Shown here in pieces: positions 38,854 through 57,455 of a stretch of 64,000 nt of DNA. The stretch covers positions 248,001 through 312,000 of the forward strand of contig CANNFY010000001.1 of the NCBI GenBank assembly GCA_947504045.1, read 5' to 3'. The notes under the pieces were generated by a model. It was not told the origin of the DNA. It saw only the letters and a list, made by a program, of their open reading frames with translations, and made no database searches. Positions within the stretch are counted from its first letter, which is position 1. Every line of letters begins with the position of its first letter. Position numbers and translations under genes: made by a program. The stretch is from an uncultured Maribacter sp. Lineage in GTDB: Bacteria; Bacteroidota; Bacteroidia; Flavobacteriales; Flavobacteriaceae.

Positions 38854-39996
38854 TCAGGTATTGTAGTGAAAAGCAATTTTTGCTAATTGCCCCACAATTT
38901 TTACAGAGTCTTTCATAGAAAGCTTAGAGCCATCTGCATGCACCCATCTTTTTAATGGTTGCTCACATATAAGGCTTTGTACTTGTTTTTTGCCATAATA
39001 CTTACGCATACGCATAAATATTTCTACATCAAAAAGCCATCTTGTAATAAACTTTTTGGTAAACATATTTTCAACAATATCTTTATCCATTATTTTGGCA
39101 CCGCATTGGGTATCATTAAATGGCATTCCTAGTATGGTTCTTATAATTAGATTTATAGTCATACTTATTATTTTTCTTGCAGACTCTTTTGTAATATTTG
39201 CCCCCATTCTACTCATTCTAGAGCCACTCACAATCTTAAAGTCTGAGTTTTGAAGTGTTTTTACCAAATCATCAAAATCTCTAAAATCTGTAGATAAATC
39301 TGCATCTAAATATCCTATATAATCTAATTGTTCGTCTTTTGCTAAATGTAAAACACCTTGCCTTACAGCTTCTGCTTTACCTCCATTTTTTTCGCAATCA
39401 TAAATACTAATAGTATCTTCATTACCTTTTCTAAGTTCTTGTAAAACTTCTAACGTTTTATCTGTACTACCATCATTTACAAAACATAAATGGTATCCTA
39501 AATTACGGTGTGCAAAATCTTTAAACTCTACACCTGATAATCGTTCTTCCTCGTTATAACACGGAATAACTACACCAACGCAATATTCTTGTAACATTCT
39601 AGAAGAAGTTTCTTTTGTATTTTTTACAGAAGTTTTATTATCTCCTAAAATACGCTTAACTCTAGCTGCAACTTCATTTAAACTTACTGGTTTTTTCATA
39701 TAATCATCTATTCCTAGATCAAAACCATCCATTATTACATTTTCATCTGTATTACCAGACATAACCATAATTGGTGTTTTAGAGTTATTAGTAACTCTAA
39801 TATGTTTTACTACTTCTAATCCAGACATATCTGGCATGTTAATATCTACAATAACTAAGTCTGGGTTAAAAGTTTCGAACAAAGCTTTACCATCATTACC
39901 ACAATCCGCAGTTTTAACAGTGTACCCCAACTCTACTAATCTCTTTTCTAGAGATAATAATATTAATTGTTGGTCATCAATAGCGAGTATTTTCAT
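38854..39996 (-). CDS. Response-regulator / GT2 glycosyltransferase fusion
   Basis: A 380-residue fusion. Residues 1-120 are a complete receiver domain: acidic pocket D7/D8, phospho-acceptor D51 (VIVDINMPDMSG), conserved K102. After a short linker, residues 138-370 are a family 2 glycosyltransferase resembling dolichyl-phosphate-sugar synthases: VVIPCYNEEERL, NDGSTDK (174-180), GYLDADLST with DxD at 231-233. No membrane segments, so it would work at the inner face of the membrane on a lipid-phosphate acceptor. Phosphorylation could switch the enzyme directly. It is divergent from the GT-C operon (252 bases between). Confidence 0.92.
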   Translation of the reverse strand: MKILAIDDQQLILLSLEKRLVELGYTVKTADCGNDGKALFETFNPDLVIVDINMPDMSGLEVVKHIRVTNNSKTPIMVMSGNTDENVIMDGFDLGIDDYMKKPVSLNEVAARVKRILGDNKTSVKNTKETSSRMLQEYCVGVVIPCYNEEERLSGVEFKDFAHRNLGYHLCFVNDGSTDKTLEVLQELRKGNEDTISIYDCEKNGGKAEAVRQGVLHLAKDEQLDYIGYLDADLSTDFRDFDDLVKTLQNSDFKIVSGSRMSRMGANITKESARKIISMTINLIIRTILGMPFNDTQCGAKIMDKDIVENMFTKKFITRWLFDVEIFMRMRKYYGKKQVQSLICEQPLKRWVHADGSKLSMKDSVKIVGQLAKIAFHYNT

Positions 39997-43339: not shown

Positions 43340-44578
43340 ATGTATTTTAGGTTAAGTATCGTTTTTTATATAATAATACTGGGGTGCTCTTCAAAAAAAG
43401 AACAGCAACCTACACAAAAAAATGCCCCTAAAATTGAGTTGTTATCTAAAAAAAATAATTTTGTTGCTGGAGATTCTATTACTCTACTTTTTAAAACAGA
43501 AGCTAGTAACTATAACATAAAACTACAGGTTAAAAACGCTTATGGTAACACTCTTTTAAGTCCATCAAAAAAAGAAAACAATCAAATTTTATTTTCGCTA
43601 CCGAAAAACTATACAAGATTAGCTGGTCCATGCAGATGGAAAGTATTATATAATAAAGAAATTCTTTTACATGGGAAATTAGATATTAAAACCAATACCT
43701 CTAAAGCCACTTATATAGAATCTTATTTTGGCCCACGTAGTGTTACAGCAGGTTATAATGATTATTCTATGCTAACTATTTCGCCAACTGATTTTTATGA
43801 CAACCCTTTAGATGATGGTACAGAAGTTACCGTAAAATATCAATTTTTAGAAAATATAACAGAATTAAAAATTACAACTCAGAACTTTTTTTCTTTTTAT
43901 AATGTACGGTCTACTCTAAAATCTGGAAGAATTCTTGTAACATCAGAATGTAATGGTACAACCTCTAAAGAACTTACTACTATAGTGTACCCTTCTAATG
44001 CTACTAACTTTTCTATACAAGCTTCTAGTGCACACAATTACGCAGATGGCAACCAAATACTAACTTTTACATCTGATGTTATTAAAGATGAATTTGGAAA
44101 TACGGTTAGCAATGGAACCTTAGTTACTTTTATAATTAAAAATGAGAACAATGCCCATTTATATACCATAGGAACAACTCTTAATGGTATTGTAGAAGCA
44201 AAAACCCTTCATCCAGATAAAGCATCTAATTGGGAAGTACAAGCCTTTGTAACTGGAGCAGCAGAAAGTAACACCATTGAATATACTTTTAAATCTGCTA
44301 TAAAAGACTACCCTGTAACGTTTTCTAAAGGAAATAGAAATATAGATATTGGTCCGTTTGAAAGTTTTATGAAACAACTAGTACCTGATGGAATACTTTT
44401 AAAATTAGATATTTACGACAAAGACGGAAAATTTATAGAAACTAAAAAAACCACTACAAAAAATGGCGTTTGTACAATTTTTTTAGGAGAACATTTTTTG
44501 CCTCAAGGAGACTATATATTAAAACTAGAAGCTGCAGGAATATCTAAAGAATTTAAAAAAAATATCCATGGCAATTAA
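43340..44578 (+). CDS. Lipoprotein with bacterial Ig-like domains
   Basis: A 412-residue exported lipoprotein (MYFRLSIVFYIIILGCSS, Cys16). The mature part is beta-rich with at least one invasin/Big1-type Ig-like repeat (DVIKDEFGNTVSNGTLVTF, about 255-275), and perhaps two others. It starts one base after the GT-C stop and overlaps the GH5-like gene by 11 bases, so the three are translated together. It likely acts as a periplasmic or outer-membrane scaffold in glycan handling. No catalytic motif is seen. Confidence 0.75.
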   Translation: MYFRLSIVFYIIILGCSSKKEQQPTQKNAPKIELLSKKNNFVAGDSITLLFKTEASNYNIKLQVKNAYGNTLLSPSKKENNQILFSLPKNYTRLAGPCRWKVLYNKEILLHGKLDIKTNTSKATYIESYFGPRSVTAGYNDYSMLTISPTDFYDNPLDDGTEVTVKYQFLENITELKITTQNFFSFYNVRSTLKSGRILVTSECNGTTSKELTTIVYPSNATNFSIQASSAHNYADGNQILTFTSDVIKDEFGNTVSNGTLVTFIIKNENNAHLYTIGTTLNGIVEAKTLHPDKASNWEVQAFVTGAAESNTIEYTFKSAIKDYPVTFSKGNRNIDIGPFESFMKQLVPDGILLKLDIYDKDGKFIETKKTTTKNGVCTIFLGEHFLPQGDYILKLEAAGISKEFKKNIHGN

Positions 44579-46106
44579 ATTAAATAAAGCCTTATACAGA
44601 ACCATACTTATAGCCACATTTATTGCTATAAATGCACTTATAATATTTGGAATAGGTTCTGCTTGGGCGTTTATGAATACAGGTGCAGATAAAACCTCTA
44701 TGCTACATTTAGAAGTTCCTATGGAGGATGTATATAAACCGAACATGAAATGGGTTAATTTAGAAAACCCAGGAAGACCAATGGAAAAACAAGCATTAGG
44801 CGAAATAACTAATGATTATATGAATGCTTGGCATGTACGTAATATTGCCTACAAAAAAAATGACCGTTATGGCATTGAAGACTTTTATACCGATAGTGCT
44901 AGAGTTCGTTTATATGACCATATAGATCTAAACCTTAAAAACAATAACTGGTATAAAAGAACAACTTTAAACCATACTGCCTCTTTAGATTTTTATACTG
45001 CTGATGGTACCATGGTTGTTTTTAAAGATTGTAACGTAGAAGAATACCAGGAAACTTATGAAGGAAAAAAACTTTTATTTAAAGAAAAAGATACTACTAG
45101 TTACCAAGTAATGATGCTTTTAGAAGATGGCTTTTGGCGAATAAGACACTTAAAAGAAATACCAGCCCCTATAGACACTACCAAAATAGAAAAACGAAAT
45201 ATTAAAGACAAAATAAAAAAAATTGAAACTATAAAAGGAATAAATTACTACCCTAAAGACTCTTCTTGGGACACGTTTGGTAAAAAATTTAACGACACTA
45301 TAATAAAACAAGATTTTAAAATTATAAATAATATGGGTTTAAATACAATCCGAATTTTTATACAATACGAAGATTTTGGAAAAAATAATGTAAACCCAAA
45401 AAAATTAGCCTTATTAAAAAAAGTCTTAGACATAGCGCAAGAAACTAACTTAGATGTATTAATAACCCTTTTTGATTTTTATGGAGATTATGATGTTTCT
45501 AACTGGACTTTAACCCATAGGCATGCAGAAACAATAGTTAATGCTGTAAAACACCATCCGGCTTTACTTGCTTGGGATATAAAAAATGAGCCCGATTTAG
45601 ATTTTGAATCTAGAGAAAAACAACGCGTTATAGGCTGGTTAGAACAAATGATTGAGAATATAAAAGCTTGGGATAAACACCACCCTGTAACTATAGGATG
45701 GTCCTCTCCTGAAGCCAGTGTAGAATTAGCCAATAATGTAGATTTTATTTCTTTTCATTATTACAGAGAACCAAGTAAATTTATTGATGCATACAGTACA
45801 TTAAGGGCTACTATACCAACAAAACCAAAAGTACTACAAGAGTATGGCATGTCATCATACAAAGGTTTATGGAACTTTTATAGAGGAGCAGATGAGCAAG
45901 AACAGTTAGAGTATTATACAGAAATGCAAAGCATTCTTAAACAAGAAAAAATACCCTATATGTTTTGGACACTTTATGATTTTAAAAATGTGCCAAGTTC
46001 TGTTGCTGGTAGTTTACCATGGAAATCTAAAAAACAACACTTTTTTGGATGTTTAGATACTATTGGGAATAAAAAACCGGCTTTTAAAGTCTTGTCCGTA
46101 AACTAA
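44568..46106 (+). CDS. Membrane-anchored GH5-like glycoside hydrolase with NTF2-like domain
   Basis: A 512-residue protein. Order: one N-terminal membrane helix (about 11-36), an NTF2-like domain (about 78-197), then a TIM-barrel glycoside hydrolase (about 220-500). The acid/base glutamate is E341 in WDIKNEPDLDF and the nucleophile is E425 in KVLQEYGMSS, as in clan GH-A enzymes such as GH5. It is the last gene of the GT-C operon and would face the periplasm. Hydrolases in polysaccharide synthesis operons commonly trim or edit the nascent chain. The exact family needs a search. Confidence 0.82.
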   Translation: MAIKLNKALYRTILIATFIAINALIIFGIGSAWAFMNTGADKTSMLHLEVPMEDVYKPNMKWVNLENPGRPMEKQALGEITNDYMNAWHVRNIAYKKNDRYGIEDFYTDSARVRLYDHIDLNLKNNNWYKRTTLNHTASLDFYTADGTMVVFKDCNVEEYQETYEGKKLLFKEKDTTSYQVMMLLEDGFWRIRHLKEIPAPIDTTKIEKRNIKDKIKKIETIKGINYYPKDSSWDTFGKKFNDTIIKQDFKIINNMGLNTIRIFIQYEDFGKNNVNPKKLALLKKVLDIAQETNLDVLITLFDFYGDYDVSNWTLTHRHAETIVNAVKHHPALLAWDIKNEPDLDFESREKQRVIGWLEQMIENIKAWDKHHPVTIGWSSPEASVELANNVDFISFHYYREPSKFIDAYSTLRATIPTKPKVLQEYGMSSYKGLWNFYRGADEQEQLEYYTEMQSILKQEKIPYMFWTLYDFKNVPSSVAGSLPWKSKKQHFFGCLDTIGNKKPAFKVLSVN

Positions 46107-46185: not shown

Positions 46186-47391
46186 TTATTTACTTTCTAA
46201 AATGGGAGACCCCGTTTTTTTTGCTATTATAGTGTTAAAATGACTAATATACATTTCAGCAATTGCAGACATTGGTAAAGAACAAGCTGCTTGGTAATTT
46301 GCTTTTCCTAAACTTCTCCTATAAGCATCATTAGTTAAAATACTTTCCACTGCATTTGCCAAAGAGTTTACACTATCTGGATCAAAAAACTCTCCTCTAT
46401 AGCCCTCTTCTTTTACTAAAATGCTTAAATCTCCTAAATCTGGTAAAGAAACTGCTTTTCCGTAACTACCAGCTTGGTGTAAAACCCCTGAGCTACCTGT
46501 AGTAGAAGTATATGGGAATACCACCACAGCACTCTCATTAAAAATCTTAGGAACATCTTCCTCTGCCACGTAACCCGTAAACCTTAATTGCGAAACATGC
46601 TTATATTTATTTGCCATTTCATCTAAATAACCAGGTGTATTAGGGCTATCTGTACCTGCAATAACTATTTCTATATCTAAATCTGCTCTTCTTCTTATTT
46701 CTTCTACAGCTTCAATTAAAATTTCTACTTTTTTATAGGTGCCAAATTTTCCAAAAGCCATAACTTGTTTTGGGCCACTTGGTAAATTATAGTCTGGCTC
46801 AGGAGGCGTTTCAAAAGCACCATGAGGTATTAAAGCTATATTAGTTGCATTATATTTATGCTTTAATGTTGTTACATATTTACTTATAGTTACTGCAACA
46901 ATATCGGATGCTAAAACAAAACGCGTTAACGTAGTACCTATAAAATTGTATATTTTCTGCAACATTTTATTTTTTGTAAAGCCAGCGCTAGCCAAATCTA
47001 CTTTTTCTAAAATATTATGTAATAAAGATATTGTTGGTATACCTCGCATTTTGCATATAAATGGTAATAATAAACCTAAAGCTGCTGGTACTTTTTTGTC
47101 TCCAAACTTTAAAAACTGTAGGTTAAATAATATAGCGTCTGGCTTTGTCTTAGAAATAGCTTTATTAATTTTAAATAAGTTAGAATAACTATTAAATTCC
47201 CAAGCTTCCTTTACTGTTATTTTACACCCTTGTTCTTCAAAAGCTAAATCTTTTTCTTCTTTTGTTTTATCTGTAATTAATATAATTTCTGATACTTGGT
47301 CCTGCAGTCTAAAGTGCTTTACTAAATGATAGCCGTACTCTGTTAAAGTAACCTTACTAGGTGGATAGGCTGTAACTATTGCTAATTTCAT
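46186..47391 (-). CDS. GT4-family glycosyltransferase
   Basis: A 401-residue GT-B-fold transferase. N-terminal sugar-acceptor side starts MKLAIVTAYPPSKVTLTEYG; the C-terminal half has the donor-site features of GT4: VMAFGKFGTYKKVEILIEAV, FTGYVAEEDVPKIFNESAVVVFPY (in parts) and SSGVLHQAGSYGKAV. It lies 10 bases after the flippase gene in the same operon, so it probably builds the same glycan. Donor and acceptor cannot be told. Confidence 0.9.
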   Translation of the reverse strand: MKLAIVTAYPPSKVTLTEYGYHLVKHFRLQDQVSEIILITDKTKEEKDLAFEEQGCKITVKEAWEFNSYSNLFKINKAISKTKPDAILFNLQFLKFGDKKVPAALGLLLPFICKMRGIPTISLLHNILEKVDLASAGFTKNKMLQKIYNFIGTTLTRFVLASDIVAVTISKYVTTLKHKYNATNIALIPHGAFETPPEPDYNLPSGPKQVMAFGKFGTYKKVEILIEAVEEIRRRADLDIEIVIAGTDSPNTPGYLDEMANKYKHVSQLRFTGYVAEEDVPKIFNESAVVVFPYTSTTGSSGVLHQAGSYGKAVSLPDLGDLSILVKEEGYRGEFFDPDSVNSLANAVESILTNDAYRRSLGKANYQAACSLPMSAIAEMYISHFNTIIAKKTGSPILESK

Positions 47392-47401
47392 ATTATTAGA
47401 T

Positions 47402-48673
47402 TTAGGTATTATTGAGGTTTATTTTTTTGTTTTTTTTGGTAATTTCTTTTTTTATAAAAAAGTATATTAATTGCACAACTAGTAATATAGCCATAGCTAT
47501 TATTTGCATATGTACTACCATTTCTAAGTTTTTATGAAAAAAGGCTACAAGAAGTACTTGAGACATTCCTAATAAACCAGAAAGTATTACTGGCACATAA
47601 TGGTCTAAAGACAAAAAATAGTACGCAAAAATATTAGAGATTGCAAAGAGTGATGTAGCCAATGCGTATTGCCATAATAAACCAGCTACAGATATATATG
47701 CGTCTCCAAACATAAGGGTAATTATTAGGTCTGGAAAAAAGTAACAAAAACCAACTATAAAGGCAGATAATAAACCTATATAAGAAATGTATTTAAATAA
47801 AATAGGCGCTGTTGGTTCTCCATCTTTATGCTTTTGTACTACTGTTGGCAATAATAACATAACAAACATCCAAGCAACAAAATAGACTACTCTACCTATT
47901 AATGCTAAAGAAGCATAAAGGCCTGCATCTAATGCATTAAAATAATGTTTTACCAATAATACATCGCTATTATTAATAATTATTTGAGTAAGCTCATAAC
48001 AAGCAGTTAACCATATAAATTGAGAAACTCGTTTAGAATTTTCGGGCAACATTTCGCCTGCTTTTCTAAAAGACAATCCTTTAACATCAGACGGAAATAG
48101 CCCAAATAAAAATGATATTAAAATTCCTAATGCAACTAAAATACCTGGTTGCCAAGGCACTAAATATACTAGTGCAATTGTTATTACTAACCTACTCCAC
48201 ATTTCTGTTTGATAGGTAATAGATAGTTTGTTAAATTTTAATTGTCCCTGAAAAGTTCCTCTGTTAACACTCATAAAAAAATAACAAGGAACACCTATTG
48301 CAAAAACAATAAACATCCAATGACTTTCTGTGTTAAAAAGAAGCTGCAATTTTTTTGCAAAAATTAAAATAAGAACTCCTATAGCAAGACCTACATAACA
48401 AGACTGTTTGTATATTTTATCTCTAAATTTTTGCCACTCCTCATCCGCAAATATAACAGCAAATTTTGCTGTTGCTAACTGAAAAGTCATACCCATAAAA
48501 GATAACACCAATAATAAGGTTACTAAAAGAGCTGCTTCTGCAAAAGCTGCAGGCCCTAATATTCTTCCTAAAAAAAGATTATATAGGTAGTTTCCTCCAT
48601 TAACTAGAAGAACACTACCCATAAACCATTGTTCTGGGGAAACTTTTTTTAATACTAATTTAAACGCGGTCAT
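47402..48673 (-). CDS. Polysaccharide flippase-like membrane protein
   Basis: A 423-residue inner-membrane protein with about 12 predicted helices, of the MOP superfamily (Wzx/MATE-type lipid-linked oligosaccharide flippases). N-terminal NGGNYLYNLFLGRILGPAAFAEAALLVT is typical. Its ATG lies inside the preceding STAS gene (14-base overlap), so the two are translationally coupled, and a GT4 gene follows 10 bases downstream. It would move a lipid-linked sugar chain across the membrane. Confidence 0.87.
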   Translation of the reverse strand: MTAFKLVLKKVSPEQWFMGSVLLVNGGNYLYNLFLGRILGPAAFAEAALLVTLLLVLSFMGMTFQLATAKFAVIFADEEWQKFRDKIYKQSCYVGLAIGVLILIFAKKLQLLFNTESHWMFIVFAIGVPCYFFMSVNRGTFQGQLKFNKLSITYQTEMWSRLVITIALVYLVPWQPGILVALGILISFLFGLFPSDVKGLSFRKAGEMLPENSKRVSQFIWLTACYELTQIIINNSDVLLVKHYFNALDAGLYASLALIGRVVYFVAWMFVMLLLPTVVQKHKDGEPTAPILFKYISYIGLLSAFIVGFCYFFPDLIITLMFGDAYISVAGLLWQYALATSLFAISNIFAYYFLSLDHYVPVILSGLLGMSQVLLVAFFHKNLEMVVHMQIIAMAILLVVQLIYFFIKKEITKKNKKINLNNT

Positions 48674-48962
48674 TACTTAAAATATAATGTGTCTTTGTAT
48701 TCTTCATGGTATTCATAATTTTTTTATTTTGCCTACCAATTATAGATATTATCTTATTTTCTCCTACGGCAGTTTTATATAGTTTCTCTAACATAAAAGC
48801 ACCGCTTTTATCTATAGAACTAACTTTTTCTATATTTAGAATAATACTTTCGGTAGTTGGAATAATAGATTCAAAATAATTTTTTAATGAAGTCATATTT
48901 TGAGATGATATACTTCCTAAAACTTCAAACATTCCGCTGTTCTCTTTAATTTCAAATGCCAT
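48660..48962 (-). CDS. STAS-domain protein (anti-sigma-factor-antagonist type)
   Basis: A 100-residue single STAS domain. The site of reversible phosphorylation in SpoIIAA-like proteins is present as S53 in IEKVSSIDKSGAFML. It is the first gene of the flippase-GT4 operon and overlaps the flippase by 14 bases. No cognate anti-sigma kinase (HATPase of the SpoIIAB type) or PP2C phosphatase is in the window. Coupling with the flippase suggests it may regulate transport or biosynthesis rather than a sigma factor; that is inference. Confidence 0.82.
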   Translation of the reverse strand: MAFEIKENSGMFEVLGSISSQNMTSLKNYFESIIPTTESIILNIEKVSSIDKSGAFMLEKLYKTAVGENKIISIIGRQNKKIMNTMKNTKTHYILSNDRV

Positions 48963-49330: not shown

Positions 49331-51403
49331 ATGCAAAAATATAGTGTACTCTTTTTTATATTCTTTTCTATAATTACAGTAGCTCAAGAAGACATGAGTA
49401 AAGGTTTTAAACTACTTGAAAATGGTAATTTTGAAAATGCAGAATCTTTTTTTAAAGGTATTCTAGAAAATAATCCAAAAAACAAAACAGCAAGGCTTTG
49501 CTATGGTAGAGCAGTTGGTCTAAGCGGCGAGCCTAAAAAAGCCAATACTTTATTTTCAGAATTACTTAAAGAATATCCAGGAGATTTTGAAGTAGAAATA
49601 AATTACAACGAATCTTATTTATGGTCTAAAGATTACGAATCTGCTAAACCTTTGTATAAAAAATTAGTTGCTGATTATCCAGATAAGTTTGGCGCAGTTT
49701 TAGGGTATGCAAATACTTTAAGTAACCTTAAAGAGTATAAACTTGCTTTAGAGTGGGTAGATAAAGCAATTGCGTTAGACCCAGAAAACCCAAGTGCTCT
49801 TGTTTCTAAAAAATATATGCGCCTGGGCTATGCAAATGCATTTGTAAACAAACAACAATATGCTAAAGGAGAAGAATTATTAAAAAGCATATTTAAAGAT
49901 TTTCCTGAAGATAAGGATGCTTTAAAAAATTTGGCAAACCTATATTTAATTACAAAAAGTGTAGACAAAGCTAAAAACACCTATAAAAGATATGCTACAA
50001 ATGCAAAAGACTCTATAATTGCATTAAATGGTATAGCCTTAGCCGAACATATAGGAGAACAAGATAAAGAAGCGCTAAAAGTTGCTACAATAGCAAAAAA
50101 AGAAGTACTCTCAATAAACGATACAGAAATAACCGAACAAACTTATAATAGATATATACAGGCTTTAATCTGGAATCAGAAATACAAGAAAGCTAAAATA
50201 CAAATAGATAGTCTTAATACTGCTGCTCCAAATAGAAATTGGGTTATGGCACTTGATGCTACTTTAGGAATGTATACTGCCAACTTTAAAAAAAGTTTAA
50301 AAAATTATGATTCTATTTTAAAGAATGATAGTGCTTCTTTTGACGGAAATTTAGGAAAAGCCAATGCCTTATTTGCTTCTGATAAAATTATACCTGCCTA
50401 TAGAGCTGCAAAGCAAACATTGGTATACTATAAAAAACAGAAAGATGCATCTAACTTTATTGAAAAACTAGATTTAAAATACACCCCTACTGTAGAAGAG
50501 CATGCCAGTTATACTTTTGATAATGGTAATAATACTGCTTTTTCAAGTACTACAAGTGCCAATATAGCTTTGTCTACAAAATTTATTACTAGTTTTTCTT
50601 ATCAATTTAGAACTACCGAAAACACTGTTAATTTAAATAAAGCTACCTCTCATGTATTAAATGCTGGTATATCTTATAAACTTATACCTAAAACAAATTT
50701 AAAAGCAACAATAGGTATAAATAAATCTATTTCAACTGCTACAGAATTTTCTCAACCTGTAGTAGATATACGGTTGCAAACACAACCATTTAGACTACAA
50801 AATTTAGATTTAATATACACTAGAGAAGTTCAAAGTTTTAATGCAGACCTAATAGAAAGAGAAATTGTAATGAACCATTACGGCTTAACATACAATTTAG
50901 GAACTACCTTTAATTTAGGTTGGTATACCCAACTTATGTATACCGAACAGACGGATAGTAACACCCGAAATTTATTATTTAGCTCTTTATATTATAATTT
51001 ATTTAAAAAGCCCGCAGTTAAAGTTGGCGTAAACTACCAATATTTAAGTTTTGCTAATCAGGTACCAACTATATATTTTAGTCCGTCTATTTACCAAGCG
51101 GTAGAATTATTTGCAGATGTAAGAGGTAATTTTACTGAAAAAACCTCCGCTATGATAAGTGCTGCATCTGGCTATCAAAAAGTAGAAGAAGACCCAATGA
51201 CGGTTATTTTTAGAGCAGAAACTGCTTTACAACATAAATTTTCTAAAAGACTTAACGGTTCTGTATATGGTAAGTATAGTAATATAGCTTCTGCTACCGC
51301 TGCTGGGTTTCAGTTTACAGAAATAGGAATAAAAATAAAGTGGTTATTTACAAAAAAGCCTCTGTTTTATAACAAGCTACAGAAACAAATTGCTTTAAAG
51401 TAA
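49331..51403 (+). CDS. TPR-containing outer-membrane beta-barrel protein (YaiO-like)
   Basis: A 690-residue exported protein. Signal peptide to about residue 19 (FFSIITVAQED), then a run of TPR repeats (about 20-385, for example FENAESFFKGILENNPKNK), then a beta-barrel of about 300 residues ending near IGIKIKWLF. The layout TPR plus barrel is that of YaiO and of BcsC/PgaA/AlgK-E type exopolysaccharide exporters. It stands alone between the flippase operon and the signalling operon, so it is the likely outer-membrane exit for the glycan made here. The mapped role is inference. Confidence 0.83.
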   Translation: MQKYSVLFFIFFSIITVAQEDMSKGFKLLENGNFENAESFFKGILENNPKNKTARLCYGRAVGLSGEPKKANTLFSELLKEYPGDFEVEINYNESYLWSKDYESAKPLYKKLVADYPDKFGAVLGYANTLSNLKEYKLALEWVDKAIALDPENPSALVSKKYMRLGYANAFVNKQQYAKGEELLKSIFKDFPEDKDALKNLANLYLITKSVDKAKNTYKRYATNAKDSIIALNGIALAEHIGEQDKEALKVATIAKKEVLSINDTEITEQTYNRYIQALIWNQKYKKAKIQIDSLNTAAPNRNWVMALDATLGMYTANFKKSLKNYDSILKNDSASFDGNLGKANALFASDKIIPAYRAAKQTLVYYKKQKDASNFIEKLDLKYTPTVEEHASYTFDNGNNTAFSSTTSANIALSTKFITSFSYQFRTTENTVNLNKATSHVLNAGISYKLIPKTNLKATIGINKSISTATEFSQPVVDIRLQTQPFRLQNLDLIYTREVQSFNADLIEREIVMNHYGLTYNLGTTFNLGWYTQLMYTEQTDSNTRNLLFSSLYYNLFKKPAVKVGVNYQYLSFANQVPTIYFSPSIYQAVELFADVRGNFTEKTSAMISAASGYQKVEEDPMTVIFRAETALQHKFSKRLNGSVYGKYSNIASATAAGFQFTEIGIKIKWLFTKKPLFYNKLQKQIALK

Positions 51404-51440: not shown

Positions 51441-52157
51441 TTATTTTAAAAGGTTTAAATGCTGCATAAGTTTAGGTTTCTGAGACCTGCTTATTGGAAT
51501 TACATTTTTGTCTATTAACACACTATTATCTTCTATATCTATAATTTTTGTAAAATTAATTATATAAGAACGGTGTATTTGTAAGAAAATATCTTCTGGT
51601 AATTTTTCTTTTATTTTCTTTAAGGTGTTATGCACTTTATATTCTGCATCTTCTGTTTTTATATTAATATAATCACCTAATGCTTTAATTATAAGTATTT
51701 CGTTAAATTTTAGTTTAATTAAACGGTGATCTATATTAATAAATAATTCTCCTAGGTTTACGGTATTACGAGCTTGCGTTGCGTTGTCTACAATACTTTG
51801 TGTATGAATGGCCGTTTTAACCTTTTTAATGCATTTATTAAAACGCTCTTGTGTTAGAGGTTTTATTAAATAATCTACAATAGTATCATACTCATAAGCC
51901 TGTAATGCAAGGTCTTTATCTGAAGTTATTAAAACTATTTTAGGAGGTGTTTTTAAAGTTTCTACAAAATCAAACCCTGTAAACCCTGGCATATGTATAT
52001 CTAAAAAAACAACATCTACGGTATGTTTATTTAAATATTTTATAGCTTCTATTGCACTTGAAAATTCTTCTTCTACCGTAATTTCAGAGGTATTTTCACA
52101 AAATTTAGCAACTACTGCTCTTGCTGTTGCTTCATCATCTACAATAATACAGTTCAT
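51441..52157 (-). CDS. LytTR-family response regulator
   Basis: A 238-residue two-domain regulator: receiver (1-115) with D7/D8 and phospho-acceptor D53 (VVFLDIHMPGFTG), and a C-terminal LytTR DNA-binding domain (about 140-238, with YINIKTEDAEYKVHNTLKKI and LQIHRSYIINFTKI). It is the last gene of the H-NOX/FIST signalling operon, 1 base after the Hpt gene. It would be the transcriptional output of the relay. Targets are not known; candidate direct repeats are noted elsewhere in the window. Confidence 0.93.
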   Translation of the reverse strand: MNCIIVDDEATARAVVAKFCENTSEITVEEEFSSAIEAIKYLNKHTVDVVFLDIHMPGFTGFDFVETLKTPPKIVLITSDKDLALQAYEYDTIVDYLIKPLTQERFNKCIKKVKTAIHTQSIVDNATQARNTVNLGELFINIDHRLIKLKFNEILIIKALGDYINIKTEDAEYKVHNTLKKIKEKLPEDIFLQIHRSYIINFTKIIDIEDNSVLIDKNVIPISRSQKPKLMQHLNLLK

Positions 52158-52158
52158 A

Positions 52159-52482
52159 TTAAATATTTAAAATATAATTTTCTATGGTATCTAAAATTTT
52201 CATAAAATCATCTTTCTGATTTGGGTTCCCAAATTTTAATTCTTCTTCAAAACGTACTGCTAATCTATATCCATTATGTAAGCCTAGTATATTAAACTTA
52301 TGTTTTAATTTATGTACTATTTCTGCAGTAGCATTATAATCTTTTTTTTTTATAGAATCTATATAAGTCTGTTTTTCTACAGGAAATTCGCTTTTTACAA
52401 TTCCTAAAAATTTTTGTTCAAAAGAATAATCGCCTCCTGCAAGTTCTTTTATGTAATCTAAATTTGGCTGTTCTACAATCAT
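52159..52482 (-). CDS. Histidine phosphotransfer (Hpt) protein
   Basis: A 107-residue four-helix Hpt domain. The phospho-accepting histidine is H57 in AEIVHKLKHKFNILG. It is 4 bases after a histidine kinase gene and 1 base before the LytTR regulator gene, so it should pass phosphate between kinase-linked receivers and that regulator or to receivers elsewhere, such as the REC-GT2 fusion (inference). Confidence 0.88.
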   Translation of the reverse strand: MIVEQPNLDYIKELAGGDYSFEQKFLGIVKSEFPVEKQTYIDSIKKKDYNATAEIVHKLKHKFNILGLHNGYRLAVRFEEELKFGNPNQKDDFMKILDTIENYILNI

Positions 52483-52486
52483 AATT

Positions 52487-53527
52487 TTATTTTTTAATTG
52501 TAAAATAAATAGTGGTTCCTTTTTCTAAACGAGATTCCAACCATACTTCTCCTTCATAAATATTCACTATTTTTTTTACTAACGCTAAACCTATACCGGT
52601 TGCATTTGCATTATTTTCTAATTTTTTAAACATATTAAATATACTTTCTTGGTACTTATCTGGTATACCTTTTCCGTTGTCTTTAATACTAAATTTCCAA
52701 TAATCTTTTTTATCTATAGCTTCTATACTAATTTTACCTTCCTTTTTTTCTTCGGTTGCTGTAACTGCATTGGTAATTAGGTTTTTAAATAATTGTTCTA
52801 ATTTGTATTTATCTTTATACAAAACAGGTAATTCTCCTGTTGTAATAAGTTCTATATTTTGCGGTATATAAATAGTATTTTTTATTTCTTCTATTAATTT
52901 TGCAATAGATATATTTGTTTTTTCCTCTTCGTGAGCTTCTAGGGTTGCATGCCTAAGTATACCGTCTATTAAATTATCTACTTTTGCTAAATTTTGGGTT
53001 ACTAAAGAACAATTAAATTTACTTTCTTCTGAAAACTTGTCTTTTTCTTCTTCAGATATCCAGCTCATTAAAGTATGCATATTACGTATTGGCGACTTTA
53101 AATCGTGAGAAACCATATGTGCATAATTATTTAAAGACTCATTTTGTTCTTCTAAATCTTTTAATAACTCTTTTCTTTCTGCTGTTAGTTCTATAATTTT
53201 TTCTGCTTGCTCTTCTATACTAGCAGCAATTTTTAATGGATTAATAGCGTGGTTACTATCATCTATTGCATCTTCATCCATTATTTTTAACACTTTACTA
53301 AGTGATGCAAAAACTTTTTTTTGTGCTTCTACTTTATCTCTTAAATCTGCATTTACTACCGTAAGTTCTTTAGAGCTAATAGTAGTAGATCGCTGGATCA
53401 TTTCTAACTTTTCATCGTTATTATAATACGATTTACTTATAGCCAACAGAAATTCTTCCATTTCTGGTGTACCTACTAAGTTTTCGGGTAAAAATTTTCT
53501 TATTTGTCTTTTTAATAAAGAATGCAT
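52487..53527 (-). CDS. Histidine kinase (soluble)
   Basis: A 346-residue cytoplasmic kinase: N-terminal coiled coil (about 45-135), HisKA with phospho-accepting H141 (YAHMVSHDLKSPIRNM), and HATPase (about 225-346) with FKNLITNAV, DNGKGIP and GIGLALVKKI. No membrane segment or PAS domain, so input must come from a partner. Its ATG overlaps the stop of the FIST gene by one base, the arrangement expected for a kinase read by a NosP-like sensor. It resembles the longer kinase two genes upstream, suggesting duplication. Confidence 0.92.
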   Translation of the reverse strand: MHSLLKRQIRKFLPENLVGTPEMEEFLLAISKSYYNNDEKLEMIQRSTTISSKELTVVNADLRDKVEAQKKVFASLSKVLKIMDEDAIDDSNHAINPLKIAASIEEQAEKIIELTAERKELLKDLEEQNESLNNYAHMVSHDLKSPIRNMHTLMSWISEEEKDKFSEESKFNCSLVTQNLAKVDNLIDGILRHATLEAHEEEKTNISIAKLIEEIKNTIYIPQNIELITTGELPVLYKDKYKLEQLFKNLITNAVTATEEKKEGKISIEAIDKKDYWKFSIKDNGKGIPDKYQESIFNMFKKLENNANATGIGLALVKKIVNIYEGEVWLESRLEKGTTIYFTIKK

Positions 53528-54660
53528 TATTCGCTTATCAAAGTTAATGTCATGGTTTGGTTATGTAATTTACACTTTTCTTGCCCTGCAAAAGGCGCCA
53601 TTTCTCCGTAGGAATAAAAGCCTGCTATTTTTGCTTGTTCTCCTACTACATCTATTACTTCTTCTACTTCTTCTTCTGTTCTTTGATCCATTACTAATTT
53701 TCTTCCTACACAACTAACTAACAATCCTAATTCTGGTTTTGTTTTTCTACCTCTCATTGCAAAATTTGCTGCTGTAAAAGCACCTTCGGCAATATCATCT
53801 ACTGTTGCCATCATAAGTTGTACTGTAGAACCTAAAGGTACATCACCTGCTAGTATCATACTATTATCTTTTTCATTAATATTTAAAATAGTACGTACAA
53901 TAGTTTCTTTTTCGCCAACAGCTTTTACACTTAACGGATATAATAAGGCAGATTCTGGCAATTCTTTTACTTTATCTCCTAAATACTTTTTATACAAATC
54001 TAGTGCAGGTTGCCCGTCTAGCTCGTATAGTGTATTATCTATAGATTTTGTTATTATTCTTTCTGGTCCAAAACTTGTCCACCCTCCGTAATTTGCACAA
54101 CTAACCTCTAAAGTGTCTCCATACAAACCAATAATTATAACCTCTCCTTCTTCTGGGTTTTTATTGTATGCAGCTAATGTTTTTTCGAACCTAGAATCGT
54201 CGCCACACAGTCCGCCAGAAATATTTATTTTTTCGCCTATATATTTTTCTAGTCCTGAAATTAAAGTACTCCCATTTATAGAACTACCCTCAGACACAAC
54301 AAAAACATGCTTGAGGCCTTCTTTTGGTATTTTTTTTAGGAGTTCTATTCCTAATTTTTCTGTATTGCCTTCGTAATTTTTACTATTAGCACTTGTTACT
54401 ACAAAGCTACTTTTTTCAAATTCTATTGCAGTTATACAAATAGAATCGTCTATAACTTTATCTTCTAAAATTTCGCCAGAAGTAGAGCCAAATACAATTT
54501 CGCCATCTGGAAAAAGTGATTTAATTTCCTCATAAATTTTCTTATTTTCTAATAAAAATCTATTGCCAAAAACTAATACTAAGGGTTTTAATAAGGTTTG
54601 TTTATTACTTAAGAATTTCCATTCTTTATTTCCTTCTTTAATTGCTTGTTGTATTTTCAT
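53527..54660 (-). CDS. FIST-domain sensor protein (NosP-like)
   Basis: A 377-residue cytoplasmic protein with FIST-N (about 25-220, VFGSTSGEILEDKVID, NISGGLCGDDSRF) and FIST-C (about 225-365, ending GFYSYGEMAPFAG and LHNQTMTLTL). Some FIST proteins, now named NosP, bind haem and sense nitric oxide, and are paired with kinases and Hpt proteins, as here. It overlaps the PAS kinase by 23 bases and the next kinase by one, so the genes are coupled. Haem binding cannot be read from sequence; FIST proteins may also sense amino acids. Confidence 0.87.
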   Translation of the reverse strand: MKIQQAIKEGNKEWKFLSNKQTLLKPLVLVFGNRFLLENKKIYEEIKSLFPDGEIVFGSTSGEILEDKVIDDSICITAIEFEKSSFVVTSANSKNYEGNTEKLGIELLKKIPKEGLKHVFVVSEGSSINGSTLISGLEKYIGEKINISGGLCGDDSRFEKTLAAYNKNPEEGEVIIIGLYGDTLEVSCANYGGWTSFGPERIITKSIDNTLYELDGQPALDLYKKYLGDKVKELPESALLYPLSVKAVGEKETIVRTILNINEKDNSMILAGDVPLGSTVQLMMATVDDIAEGAFTAANFAMRGRKTKPELGLLVSCVGRKLVMDQRTEEEVEEVIDVVGEQAKIAGFYSYGEMAPFAGQEKCKLHNQTMTLTLISE

Positions 54661-56251
54661 TTTGTTTTTTTAAGGTAAAGAAAAAGGTTGTTCCTACTCC
54701 AATTTCACTTTCTAACCACACTTTTCCTTCGTATAAATCTATTATCTTTTTTACAATAGAAAGCCCTATTCCGGTAGACCTTTCTTTATTTCCAATAGAT
54801 TGAAATATTTTAAATATTTTTTCATGATATTCTTTTGGAATACCAACACCATTATCTTTTATGCTAAACTCCCAATGCGTATCTCTATCTACACAACCAA
54901 CTTCTACTAAGCCCTTTTCTCTTTCTATATGCACTACGGCATTACTTAAAAAATTCTGAATAAGTTGATGTATTTTAGTACGATCTGCATAAATTGTTGG
55001 TAGCGTATTTGCTGTTTTAACGGTTACATGATCTGGAATAAATATTATGTCTTTTATTTCTTGCACTACCTCGTTAACATCTACAATAGAGTTGTCTAAA
55101 TTATCGCTCTTTATGGTAGAATATTTTAAAATACCGTCTATAAGTTTATCCATAGACTCTACTTTATCTTGCATCATTTTAAGGTTATAAACCCCGTTAT
55201 CATCTAACTTGTCTTTATAGTCCTCGTACATCCAAGTGGTAAGCGCGCTAATACTTCTTAAAGGCGATTTTAAATCATGAGAAACTATATGTGCATATTC
55301 TTGTAGACCTTTATTACTAGATTCTAGGTCTTTTACTAGTTGTTCTTTTTCTTCTTCCAGCTCAATTTCATGCGTTATATCTTCTATTAAAGCTACTTCA
55401 TATTTTAATTCTCCTTTAACATTTCTAACTGCATTTACTGTAGTTTTTGCAGAAAAATGAGTACCATCTTTTCTTAAATATTTTTTTACTAGCGAAAAGT
55501 CATTAATTTCTCCATTAAATAGTTTTTTTCTGTACTCTTTAGATTCTTGTAGGCTTTCTAAAGAAGTAATATCCATAGGATTTATACTTTTCAACTCCTC
55601 TTCTGTATAACCCAACATTTTTTGCATGGTTATATTAGCTTTTATTAATTTATCACTAGAGCTTAACCAAATACCTAATGGGGAATGTTCTACAATAATG
55701 TCTAACCTTTGCCTTTGCGAGTCTAAAAGATTTTTCATTTCTTGTTCCGAAGTAATATCTCTAAAAACCCCTTGTGCTCCAATTATTTTTCCACTAGTAT
55801 CGTTAATTAAACTACCGTTTACCTCTATAAATTTTAGTTCGTTATTTTTTAAAACTATACCTGGTCTAAATTTTTTAATTAAACCTGTTGCATATAACGA
55901 TTTAAAGCAGGATTTGGAATATTCTTTATAATCTGGATGTATTAAGCTTGTAAGTTTTATATTTTCTTCTTTTGTAAAGCCTAAAAACTCTTCTGCAGCA
56001 GAATTCATTTTTATAATTTTACCCTTTAAATCCATTATTAAATATGGATCTACAATATTTACAAATGCATTATCTATTTGTTTTGATTTTTGATTTAAAA
56101 GATTTTCTAAAATTCTATTTGTTTCTTTTAAATGCAATGTAGCATCATACAATTCTTTAGACTTTTCTTCTAGTATTCTTTCGGCTTGTTGTCTTGCTTT
56201 TTTTTGGCGATCTAAAGCCTTTTTAAGTAAAGTTATTTCTTTATTCTCCAT
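54638..56251 (-). CDS. PAS-domain histidine kinase
   Basis: A 537-residue cytoplasmic kinase: coiled coil (about 10-60), PAS 1 (about 62-175, MNSAAEEFLGFTKEE), PAS 2 (about 183-300, MQKMLGYTEEELKSI), HisKA with H325 (YAHIVSHDLKSPLRSI) and HATPase with QNFLSNAV, DNGVGIP and GIGLSIVKKI. The frame opens at a TTG (56266), but ATG 56251 is preferred. It overlaps the H-NOX gene by 11 bases, which marks it as the likely H-NOX-controlled kinase; it also overlaps the FIST gene. Confidence 0.9.
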   Translation of the reverse strand: MENKEITLLKKALDRQKKARQQAERILEEKSKELYDATLHLKETNRILENLLNQKSKQIDNAFVNIVDPYLIMDLKGKIIKMNSAAEEFLGFTKEENIKLTSLIHPDYKEYSKSCFKSLYATGLIKKFRPGIVLKNNELKFIEVNGSLINDTSGKIIGAQGVFRDITSEQEMKNLLDSQRQRLDIIVEHSPLGIWLSSSDKLIKANITMQKMLGYTEEELKSINPMDITSLESLQESKEYRKKLFNGEINDFSLVKKYLRKDGTHFSAKTTVNAVRNVKGELKYEVALIEDITHEIELEEEKEQLVKDLESSNKGLQEYAHIVSHDLKSPLRSISALTTWMYEDYKDKLDDNGVYNLKMMQDKVESMDKLIDGILKYSTIKSDNLDNSIVDVNEVVQEIKDIIFIPDHVTVKTANTLPTIYADRTKIHQLIQNFLSNAVVHIEREKGLVEVGCVDRDTHWEFSIKDNGVGIPKEYHEKIFKIFQSIGNKERSTGIGLSIVKKIIDLYEGKVWLESEIGVGTTFFFTLKKQNENTTSN

Positions 56252-56786
56252 TTTGCACAATATCAAATTTAACCTGTGTTCCGTCTTCTTTTAAAAGGCT
56301 GTACTTTACTGTTGCTGTAGTATTAAAATGTGCAAAGGTTTTTTCTAATAGACCTTGGGCCAACCTATATAGCCCTCTAGAGGAACTATATATTAAAGAT
56401 ATAGAGTTTTCCGTTTTCTCTACTATTCTAAATGTTGGTAATTCTGCTTCAGGGTATAGTTTTTTTACATGCACATGAATGTGATCTTCAATAGAATATA
56501 TTAAAGGCAAAGGGGATTTGTAATTTTCTATTACCTCTGGATGCGCTTTTGCTAAGCTATTAAATAAGAAATGCCCAAATGTATAAATTAAGTCACCTAC
56601 AGGTATTTTTACCGTAGTACTAAGGTTAGTAATTAAACTAAGCATTTCATTAAAATCGTAAGTGCCAATTGAGGTATAAATACCTTCTGAGGGTAAGTTT
56701 GAACTTTCTATGATAGAGTCGACTACTTCTAAGCCAAAATCTAACTCTACCATTTCTAAAAATTCGGTAAAAACAATTCCTTTCAT
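56241..56786 (-). CDS. H-NOX haem nitric-oxide sensor
   Basis: A 181-residue H-NOX (HNOB) domain protein that binds haem and senses NO. The likely haem ligand is H104 in DHIHVHVKKLYPEA, and the haem-propionate YxSxR motif is Y133-S135-R137 (IYSSSRGL). Stand-alone H-NOX proteins control a co-encoded kinase; here the gene overlaps a PAS kinase by 11 bases. It is first in the order H-NOX, kinase, FIST, kinase, Hpt, LytTR regulator. Whether it also binds oxygen is not clear; a distal Tyr was not confirmed. Confidence 0.93.
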   Translation of the reverse strand: MKGIVFTEFLEMVELDFGLEVVDSIIESSNLPSEGIYTSIGTYDFNEMLSLITNLSTTVKIPVGDLIYTFGHFLFNSLAKAHPEVIENYKSPLPLIYSIEDHIHVHVKKLYPEAELPTFRIVEKTENSISLIYSSSRGLYRLAQGLLEKTFAHFNTTATVKYSLLKEDGTQVKFDIVQNGE

Positions 56787-56869
56787 TTAAAAAAATATAA
56801 AATTTCTTAAATAAATGTAGGAATTTTACTTCTTTTAAGTAAAAAATTGTTGTGAAATTACGTATTTTG

Positions 56870-57274
56870 TTAGGCTTTAACTAGCTCATTATTTTCCCAA
56901 TAAGAAAAAACACTTGCTAATTTTTTCTCGTAATCCTCATATTTTAAAGGCTTTATAACGTATCCTGCAATACCAATACGGTAACATTCTAACAAATCTG
57001 CTCTATTTTCAGATGTTGTAAGAACAATTGTAGGAAGATACTTTAAAACAGGGTCTGCTTTTAAAATTTCTAAAAATTCTATACCACTCATTTTAGGCAT
57101 ATTAAGATCTAAAAGAATAATATCTGGTAAAATAGCATCAGATTTTAAATACTCTAACCCTTCTTCTCCGTTTTTAGCTTCAGTAATTTTGTGTTTTATG
57201 CTTAACTTAGAAACTGTTCTATTTAGCTTCATAGTTTCAATAGCATCATCTTCAATAAAAAGTACGTTTAACAT
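56870..57274 (-). CDS. Single-domain response regulator
   Basis: A 134-residue stand-alone receiver with acidic pocket (IEDD, 8-10), phospho-acceptor D56 (DIILLDLNMPKMSG) and the K of YVIKPL. Of the CheY/Rcp1 type. It lies upstream of the H-NOX gene, 83 bases away in the same direction, so it may be a phosphate sink or a shuttle to Hpt for the same relay. It has no output domain. Confidence 0.92.
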   Translation of the reverse strand: MLNVLFIEDDAIETMKLNRTVSKLSIKHKITEAKNGEEGLEYLKSDAILPDIILLDLNMPKMSGIEFLEILKADPVLKYLPTIVLTTSENRADLLECYRIGIAGYVIKPLKYEDYEKKLASVFSYWENNELVKA

Positions 57275-57455
57275 ATTATAAAATTTTAGATTACAAATCT
57301 CTTTTTATTGTTTTTAAATATATATGAGCTGTCGGTGAAATGCAATTTACTGTAGATGAACGAAAAAATGCTATAGTTTAAGAAAATTTAAAATCATGCA
57401 TTTTAACGATGAGATAGTAATAAATAAACCCTTTTAAGACTATACATATTTTTTA

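Follow-up and report, generated by a model that had tools for sequence, protein, structure and literature searches.

The cited work on H-NOX proteins centers on cyclic di-GMP (c-di-GMP) in Proteobacteria. In the HnoX-HnoK systems of Shewanella and Vibrio, an H-NOX protein works together with a kinase whose substrate is a response regulator, as PMC8846402 describes. PMC8738867 reports that, in V. harveyi and V. parahaemolyticus, H-NOX works with HqsK to act on LuxU, and that NosP acts via VpsS in V. cholerae; a genome-neighborhood figure in the same paper places FIST among the genes near hnox in one H-NOX group and depicts no relay. Here we analyze a stretch of 64,000 nucleotides from an uncultured Maribacter sp. 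of the Flavobacteriaceae (GCA_947504045.1, contig CANNFY010000001.1, positions 248,001 to 312,000; hereafter the window), in which one operon encodes an H-NOX protein and a FIST protein together with two histidine kinases, a stand-alone receiver (REC), a histidine phosphotransfer (Hpt) protein, and a LytTR response regulator. Our preferred reading, to which we assign a probability of about 0.66, is that the operon encodes an autoregulated, two-input, unfused four-step phosphorelay that controls matrix or surface genes. Earlier descriptions of the gene set as a dual NO (nitric oxide) relay, or of the operon as a relay, were looked for, and none was found within the literature searched. The relay of the Flavobacteriaceae is a conserved H-NOX system from another phylum, and a crystal structure is already available for the H-NOX protein that this operon encodes in Kordia algicida.

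Operon layout and the predicted relay

All seven open reading frames (ORFs) are open on the minus strand, in the order REC-only regulator, H-NOX, kinase 1 with two PAS domains, FIST protein, kinase 2, Hpt protein, and LytTR regulator (Table 1). A previous reading made by a model from the letters and ORFs alone (the sequence-only reading) had given the same order, and the domains were assigned by Pfam, that of the Hpt protein by its predicted fold. The REC and H-NOX genes are 83 bp apart. From H-NOX to LytTR the genes overlap or lie at most 4 bases apart, as had been claimed: H-NOX and kinase 1 overlap by 14 bp counted from 56254, or by 11 bp from the ATG at 56251, which was taken as the start of kinase 1 rather than the TTG of the longer ORF, and the later junctions are, in order, overlaps of 23 bp and 1 bp and gaps of 4 bp and 1 bp. 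The description of one coupled unit therefore stands, with H-NOX and FIST each adjoining a kinase, a shared Hpt protein, and a LytTR output; no GGDEF, EAL, or HD-GYP domain was found among the seven genes in the Pfam scan. The residues that the sequence-only reading had named, i.e., H104 and the YxSxR motif of H-NOX, H57 of Hpt, D53 of the LytTR regulator, and the kinase histidines, were all found, as were the kinase ATPase domains (HATPase_c, 85 and 89 bits), and the H-NOX assignment was confirmed by the HNOB profile. The Hpt protein scores under the Pfam gathering threshold, but its predicted model is a helical bundle (predicted local distance difference test, pLDDT, 90.4) with helices at residues 19-45, 49-65, 69-83, and 90-106 and H57 in the second, and its top Foldseek matches are Hpt domains (best 3myf, E 4e-3, TM 0.78).

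The phospho-accepting residues are invariant in the aligned members: D56 of REC in 138/138, H57 of Hpt in 135/135, D53 of the LytTR regulator in 129/129, the phospho-histidine of kinase 1 in 135/135 (alignment numbering one higher), and H141 of kinase 2 in 74/74. Because the same order and the same residues recur across the family, the seven-gene set is not a chance assembly. No receiver domain was found by Pfam in either kinase, and the domain content fits an unfused four-step phosphorelay composed of non-hybrid kinases, a stand-alone REC, an Hpt protein, and a receiver-bearing output regulator. Since the kinases have no receiver, the phospho-Asp station that they lack is probably provided by the stand-alone REC; the sequence-only reading had listed this gene in its order and had given it no role. 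Hpt proteins take phosphate from a receiver, and REC is the only receiver of the operon besides that of the LytTR regulator, which argues for phosphate passing from the kinases through REC and Hpt to LytTR. In the mechanism that we propose, H-NOX, with its heme and most likely NO as ligand, would control kinase 1, and FIST would control kinase 2 via the FIST-partner segment at the N terminus of that kinase. Both kinases would phosphorylate D56 of REC, from which phosphate would move to H57 of Hpt and finally to D53 of the LytTR regulator.

The best matches of the H-NOX protein in the PDB are 6bde (E 9e-60) and 6bdd (E 6e-59). Over residues 1-179, the H-NOX of K. algicida OT-1 (L193) matches 6bdd at every position, and 6bde differs by one residue. 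H104, which we take to be the axial heme histidine by soluble guanylate cyclase numbering, is kept in 143/144 aligned H-NOX sequences. The protein likely senses NO. In five Flavobacterium loci (L159, L163, L168, L170, L177) the H-NOX slot is occupied by a remote H-NOX that scores 30-44 bits by phmmer against the window protein; that of L159 scores 157 bits on HNOB, and its following kinase starts with an HNOBA domain. One further locus, L121, from a genome listed with 8% contamination, has an H-NOX with Tyr in place of the axial His and Asp in place of the YxSxR Arg, and a kinase 2-like gene with no FIST in the operon.

The FIST module and its distribution

The co-occurrence of H-NOX and FIST, which the sequence-only reading had thought unusual and had proposed to survey, proved common in 397 genomes of the Flavobacteriaceae, the family of the window. 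H-NOX was found in 146/397 genomes and FIST_C in 114/397. After omission of one of the 150 H-NOX places (G076:C2, 21.4 bits, under the cut-off and with stops), at least 79 of the remaining 149 have a same-strand FIST_C no more than 10 kb away, in all but one case 2.4-3.8 kb downstream; this count is a lower bound because the FIST_C places used comprised every one at ≥95 bits and part of the weaker ones. Likewise, among the FIST_C places that score ≥110 bits, 75/96 are near an H-NOX.

Gene orders were assigned by an automatic walk in 149 loci, i.e., the window and the loci around the 148 other H-NOX places; the walk stopped short in L099, a seven-gene locus that was otherwise viewed whole. The exact seven-gene order was found in 63/149 loci and the five-gene core REC-H-NOX-kinase 1-Hpt-LytTR in 53/149, while 5/149 have the seven-gene form without LytTR. 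In four loci (L074, L088, L100, L246) the FIST/kinase 2 slot is taken by a distant FIST and by another kinase, 382-383 amino acids long. These full, core, and swapped forms indicate that FIST and kinase 2 constitute a module between kinase 1 and Hpt, probably an accessory one that has often been dropped or exchanged beside a conserved H-NOX core. In a tree built from the core proteins of 132 of the 149 loci, presence of the module changes at least 23 times, compared with a mean of 42.7 and a minimum of 34 after shuffling, and in 61 loci the FIST distances follow those of the core (r 0.82, reached by 0/500 permutations). The pattern fits inheritance with repeated loss and few replacements, the change count alone being unable to separate gain from loss. 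A collection scan, from which 80 loci were kept, returned Flavobacteriaceae loci mostly with the full operon, that of K. algicida OT-1 included. In two of its loci, F. hydatis (L194) and Flavobacterium sp. (L188), the H-NOX slot is empty and LytTR was not found, with FIST, kinase 2, and Hpt kept. In a phylum-wide draw of 296 genomes, H-NOX was present in 22, and 11 of these belong to the family.

The tie between FIST and kinase 2 was also recovered without adjacency being assumed in the sampling, since a whole-genome search placed the kinase 2 N terminus always behind FIST. Its first 122 amino acids were matched in 16 of 40 whole genomes (FIST_C in 18/40), in 16/16 directly behind a FIST gene, 66-92 bp past the FIST_C match. 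The window FIST is 87% identical to that of its nearest named relative found, an uncultured Maribacter. C317, C363, and H366 are invariant among aligned FIST proteins (75/75), and C152 is present in 73/75. The AlphaFold model (mean pLDDT 94.4) has human FBXO22 as its nearest fold (E 3e-10, TM 0.54), and a profile search of the PDB with the sequence gave no match up to E 10. A second flavobacterial FIST class (L122-L136, L139, L141) is located away from H-NOX, each member beside a kinase of 574-616 amino acids; most of these kinases share the kinase 2 N-terminal segment weakly.

The predicted LytTR-type site and neighboring genes

LytTR regulators bind a direct repeat at about 21-bp spacing, and a repeat of this kind, with a unit close to CCATTC(G/A)TC(G/T)ACACTT and a spacing of about 21 bp, is found upstream of REC. 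In the window it stands 52 bp before the REC start codon, as the sole zero-mismatch match to the pattern in the whole genome. The 1.3 kb upstream of H-NOX was searched for site pairs above 18 bits in 140 loci, a set that omits short ones and those with no H-NOX of 90 bits; the site was present in 117, namely 114/128 with LytTR and 3/12 without. The three LytTR-less loci with a site look cut short, and the five relays ending in Hpt have none. Operon promoters served as the training set for the motif, which makes the count at those promoters non-independent, and the other sites are independent save in regions common to divergent genes; since the loci are related, site counts across them are not independent events. 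Over all places, the reversed motif gave 1 match and four column-shuffled motifs gave 0. Matches are concentrated at spacing 21 (319, with 28 at spacing 22 and 2 at spacing 20), and 315 of the 319 are intergenic. In Tenacibaculum skagerrakense (L201), FIST-kinase 2 lies apart from the core, and a 17.3-bit site is found at both. In the proposed mechanism, LytTR would bind the repeat before its own operon, i.e., the relay would be autoregulated.

The site also occurs before neighboring genes. It precedes polysaccharide genes in 42/149 loci, or 42/84 of those with such a gene in view (reversed motif 0, strict labels), and the gene of a secreted protein of ~860 amino acids in 35/52 loci having that gene. 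Looser gene labels (REC and STAS at E 1e-3) give 120 loci with a site before REC or H-NOX and 49 before polysaccharide genes; the stricter counts are preferred. The occurrence of the direct repeat before the operon, the exopolysaccharide genes, and the secreted-protein gene is new in this analysis. Of the 73 relay loci with >12 kb in view, 51 have a polysaccharide locus downstream: 42 the locus type of the window, 6 another (UDP-sugar dehydrogenase and a sugar transferase with a receiver-like part), and 3 a third set; among these 51 long loci, 28 have a strict site before a polysaccharide gene. In relatives, a LytTR-type site is often followed first by a small gene located ahead of the flippase. 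The beta-barrel gene is the commonest non-operon neighbor, on the same side in 42/87 long loci, followed by other genes of that locus, and the secreted-protein gene neighbors the operon in 24/87. The one member of the secreted family that was scanned carries DUF6923 and Por_Secre_tail, a type IX secretion signal. In many relatives, LytTR may also bind before the adjacent exopolysaccharide genes and the secreted-protein gene.

The receiver fused to a glycosyltransferase at 38854..39996 is possibly a further target of the relay, and receivers fused to polysaccharide enzymes could possibly allow direct phospho-control. A receiver-like part also stands ahead of a bacterial sugar transferase at L229. 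At L188, the next gene, on the opposite strand, starts with a receiver and by eye resembles the receiver-glycosyltransferase.

Besides the operon promoter, two of the 30 pattern matches examined in the genome of the window exceed 18 bits, L334 (19.7) and L337 (18.5, no clear gene). At L334 (C2 near 22,662), a second Hpt-LytTR pair is followed by the LytTR-type site and then by two ORFs of 56-57 amino acids that look similar to each other by eye; in its receiver, again by eye, the position of the operon regulator's phospho-Asp is occupied by Asn.

Table 1. Coordinates and supporting evidence for the operon, the predicted sites, and neighboring genes in the window
Feature	Coordinates	Strand	Evidence and remarks
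REC-only response regulator, D56	56870..57274	-	PF00072 73.7 bits; proposed first Asp station
H-NOX heme gas sensor, H104, Y133/S135/R137, no Cys	56241..56786	-	PF07700 (HNOB) 131.1 bits, cut-off 25.5
Histidine kinase 1, PAS-PAS-HisKA-HATPase, 537 amino acids, phospho-His 325 (from ATG)	54638..56251	-	Pfam; proposed H-NOX partner
FIST N + FIST C protein, second sensor	53527..54660	-	FIST 139.3 bits, FIST_C 122.1 bits
Histidine kinase 2, 346 amino acids, phospho-His H141, N-terminal 122 amino acids = FIST-partner segment	52487..53527	-	Pfam
Hpt phosphotransfer protein, H57	52159..52482	-	Pfam 20.1 bits, under cut-off 24.6; fold supports
LytTR response regulator, D53, output	51441..52157	-	PF04397 71 bits, PF00072 67.6 bits
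Predicted LytTR-type site, a pair of 16-bp units (57363-57348, 57342-57327) at 21-bp spacing	57327..57363	-	29.5 bits
Weaker overlapping predicted pair	57348-57384	-	13.9 bits
Tetratricopeptide repeat (TPR)/beta-barrel outer-membrane protein, remotely PgaA-like, first gene of polysaccharide locus	49331..51403	+	TIGR03939 59 bits, cut-off 366.65
STAS-domain protein of polysaccharide locus	48660..48962	-	PF01740 30 bits
Polysaccharide flippase	47402..48673	-	PF13440 45 bits
Group 1 glycosyltransferase	46186..47391	-	PF13692 67 bits
GH5-like glycoside hydrolase of polysaccharide locus	44568..46106	+	PF00150 42 bits
Receiver fused to family-2 glycosyltransferase	38854..39996	-	PF00072 90 bits, PF00535 75.5 bits

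Competing explanations and comparison with known systems

The sequence-only reading had taken the FIST protein for a NosP-like NO sensor. If so, the operon would be a dual NO relay in which each input would signal NO, perhaps within a range of its own. NosP-type FIST proteins bind heme and exert NO-dependent control over an adjacent kinase, as stated in PMC12570481; kinase 2, with its 346 amino acids and no recognized sensor domain before phospho-His 141, is like the NosK of that paper, and H366 of the FIST protein aligns with a C-terminal histidine present in all 12 sequences compared, NosP included. Against this, the profile search that had been proposed recovers the FIST domains and not NosP: the window protein scores 67.8 bits on the NosP NCBIfam equivalog model versus a cut-off of 450, with an annotated NosP control reaching 487.7, and kinase 2 scores 80.4 versus 400 bits on the model of the NosP-partner kinase. 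Where 6/6 NosP-type sequences have a histidine in a [QD]H[FL] motif, the window FIST has Gly 193 (GGW, shared with 5 other FISTs); besides L317, L318, and L319, these six comprise three that were scored on the model, one of them over the NosP cut-off and the other two, L228 and L146, at 349 and 355 bits. We thus reject the assignment as NosP and regard a dual NO relay as unlikely. The NosP-type genes at L146, L228, and L317 are on alphaproteobacterial plasmids, near pyrroloquinoline quinone (PQQ)-dependent alcohol dehydrogenase genes and a response regulator.

An alternative to the single relay is that two pathways run in parallel, in which the kinases phosphorylate LytTR directly, REC serves as a separate output or a phosphate sink, and Hpt drains phosphate. 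In its favor are the spacing that sets REC apart from H-NOX, the stand-alone CheY-like regulator that accompanies Hnox2 and its kinase in Legionella (PMC11237717), and locus L197, where REC and Hpt are both undetected and the kinases and LytTR are present. The last case fits REC and Hpt as a coupled pair, but also suggests that the kinases may work without them there. The need of Hpt for a receiver donor speaks for the single relay, as does the position of REC immediately before H-NOX in nearly all walked loci with Hpt, and parallel pathways appear quite improbable to us. As for the repeat, a motif learned from operon promoters could represent the site of any conserved regulator, with LytTR acting elsewhere. 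Its LytTR-type spacing, and its absence from the five relays that lost LytTR, make this very improbable.

Several observations weigh against the reading of an autoregulated relay controlling matrix genes. In the genome of the window, the only clear site is at the operon promoter, matches with up to 3 mismatches show no excess (35 versus 37 for the control), and the window's own polysaccharide genes have no LytTR-type site. None of the three polysaccharide sets was in view in 22/73 relay loci, 23/51 of the long loci with such a locus have no strict site before its genes, no site was found before the PgaA-like gene on its own strand in 57 loci, and the linkage may reflect shared descent. The Fisher p of 3e-6 for the association of site and LytTR overstates independence, as the LytTR-less relays may be one clade. 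Outside the family, most H-NOX have no close REC relative in the short loci examined. Furthermore, H-NOX is not enriched with Cu-nitrite reductase (NirK; 20/146 genomes with H-NOX versus 51/251 without, P = 0.10), and no Cu-nitrite reductase over the cut-off was found in the window genome; no link to denitrification by NirK is therefore seen, and the cells need not produce the NO themselves, should NO be the signal.

More tentatively, and with less than even confidence, the relay could operate as a coincidence circuit in which H-NOX (NO) and FIST (a non-NO input such as redox, electrophile, or heme state, via its invariant Cys and His) join at one Spo0F-like receiver. It would switch the Flavobacteriaceae between matrix-forming and free states through LytTR control of exopolysaccharide and secreted surface proteins, with FIST as an add-on that has been lost or exchanged time and again. 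A predicted DNA site has been defined and candidate targets lie beside the operon, so that the targets of H-NOX control in this group and the signal of a non-NosP FIST domain become testable.

The H-NOX of K. algicida (6bdd/6bde), which is encoded in the same seven-gene operon, has so far been treated as an isolated protein; a term search of the text of one paper found naming it gave no mention of kinase, operon, or FIST. Compared with HnoX-HnoK, the Maribacter operon likewise combines H-NOX with a kinase, but it has no c-di-GMP enzyme and contains a stand-alone REC and Hpt, a LytTR transcription output, and an optional FIST module. The likeness to NosP-NahK/NosK lies in a FIST gene adjoining a kinase presumably under its control, and in the short kinase, as with NosK (PMC12570481), whereas the window FIST falls outside the NosP family by model and by histidine, and the output is no c-di-GMP enzyme. 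In the quorum inputs of Vibrio, gas and other sensors also converge on one phosphorelay that controls transcription; there, by the paper cited above, quorum sensing uses the relay as well and HqsK is described as a hybrid kinase/phosphatase, whereas in Maribacter all parts are in one operon and REC stands alone.

The Spo0 relay of Bacillus has several kinases, a stand-alone receiver, a phosphotransferase, and a DNA-binding regulator, the phosphotransferase Spo0B not being of the Hpt family. The predicted path of the Maribacter relay, from kinases to a lone receiver, a phosphotransferase, and a regulator, follows the same plan, with sensors and output that are unrelated to those of Spo0.

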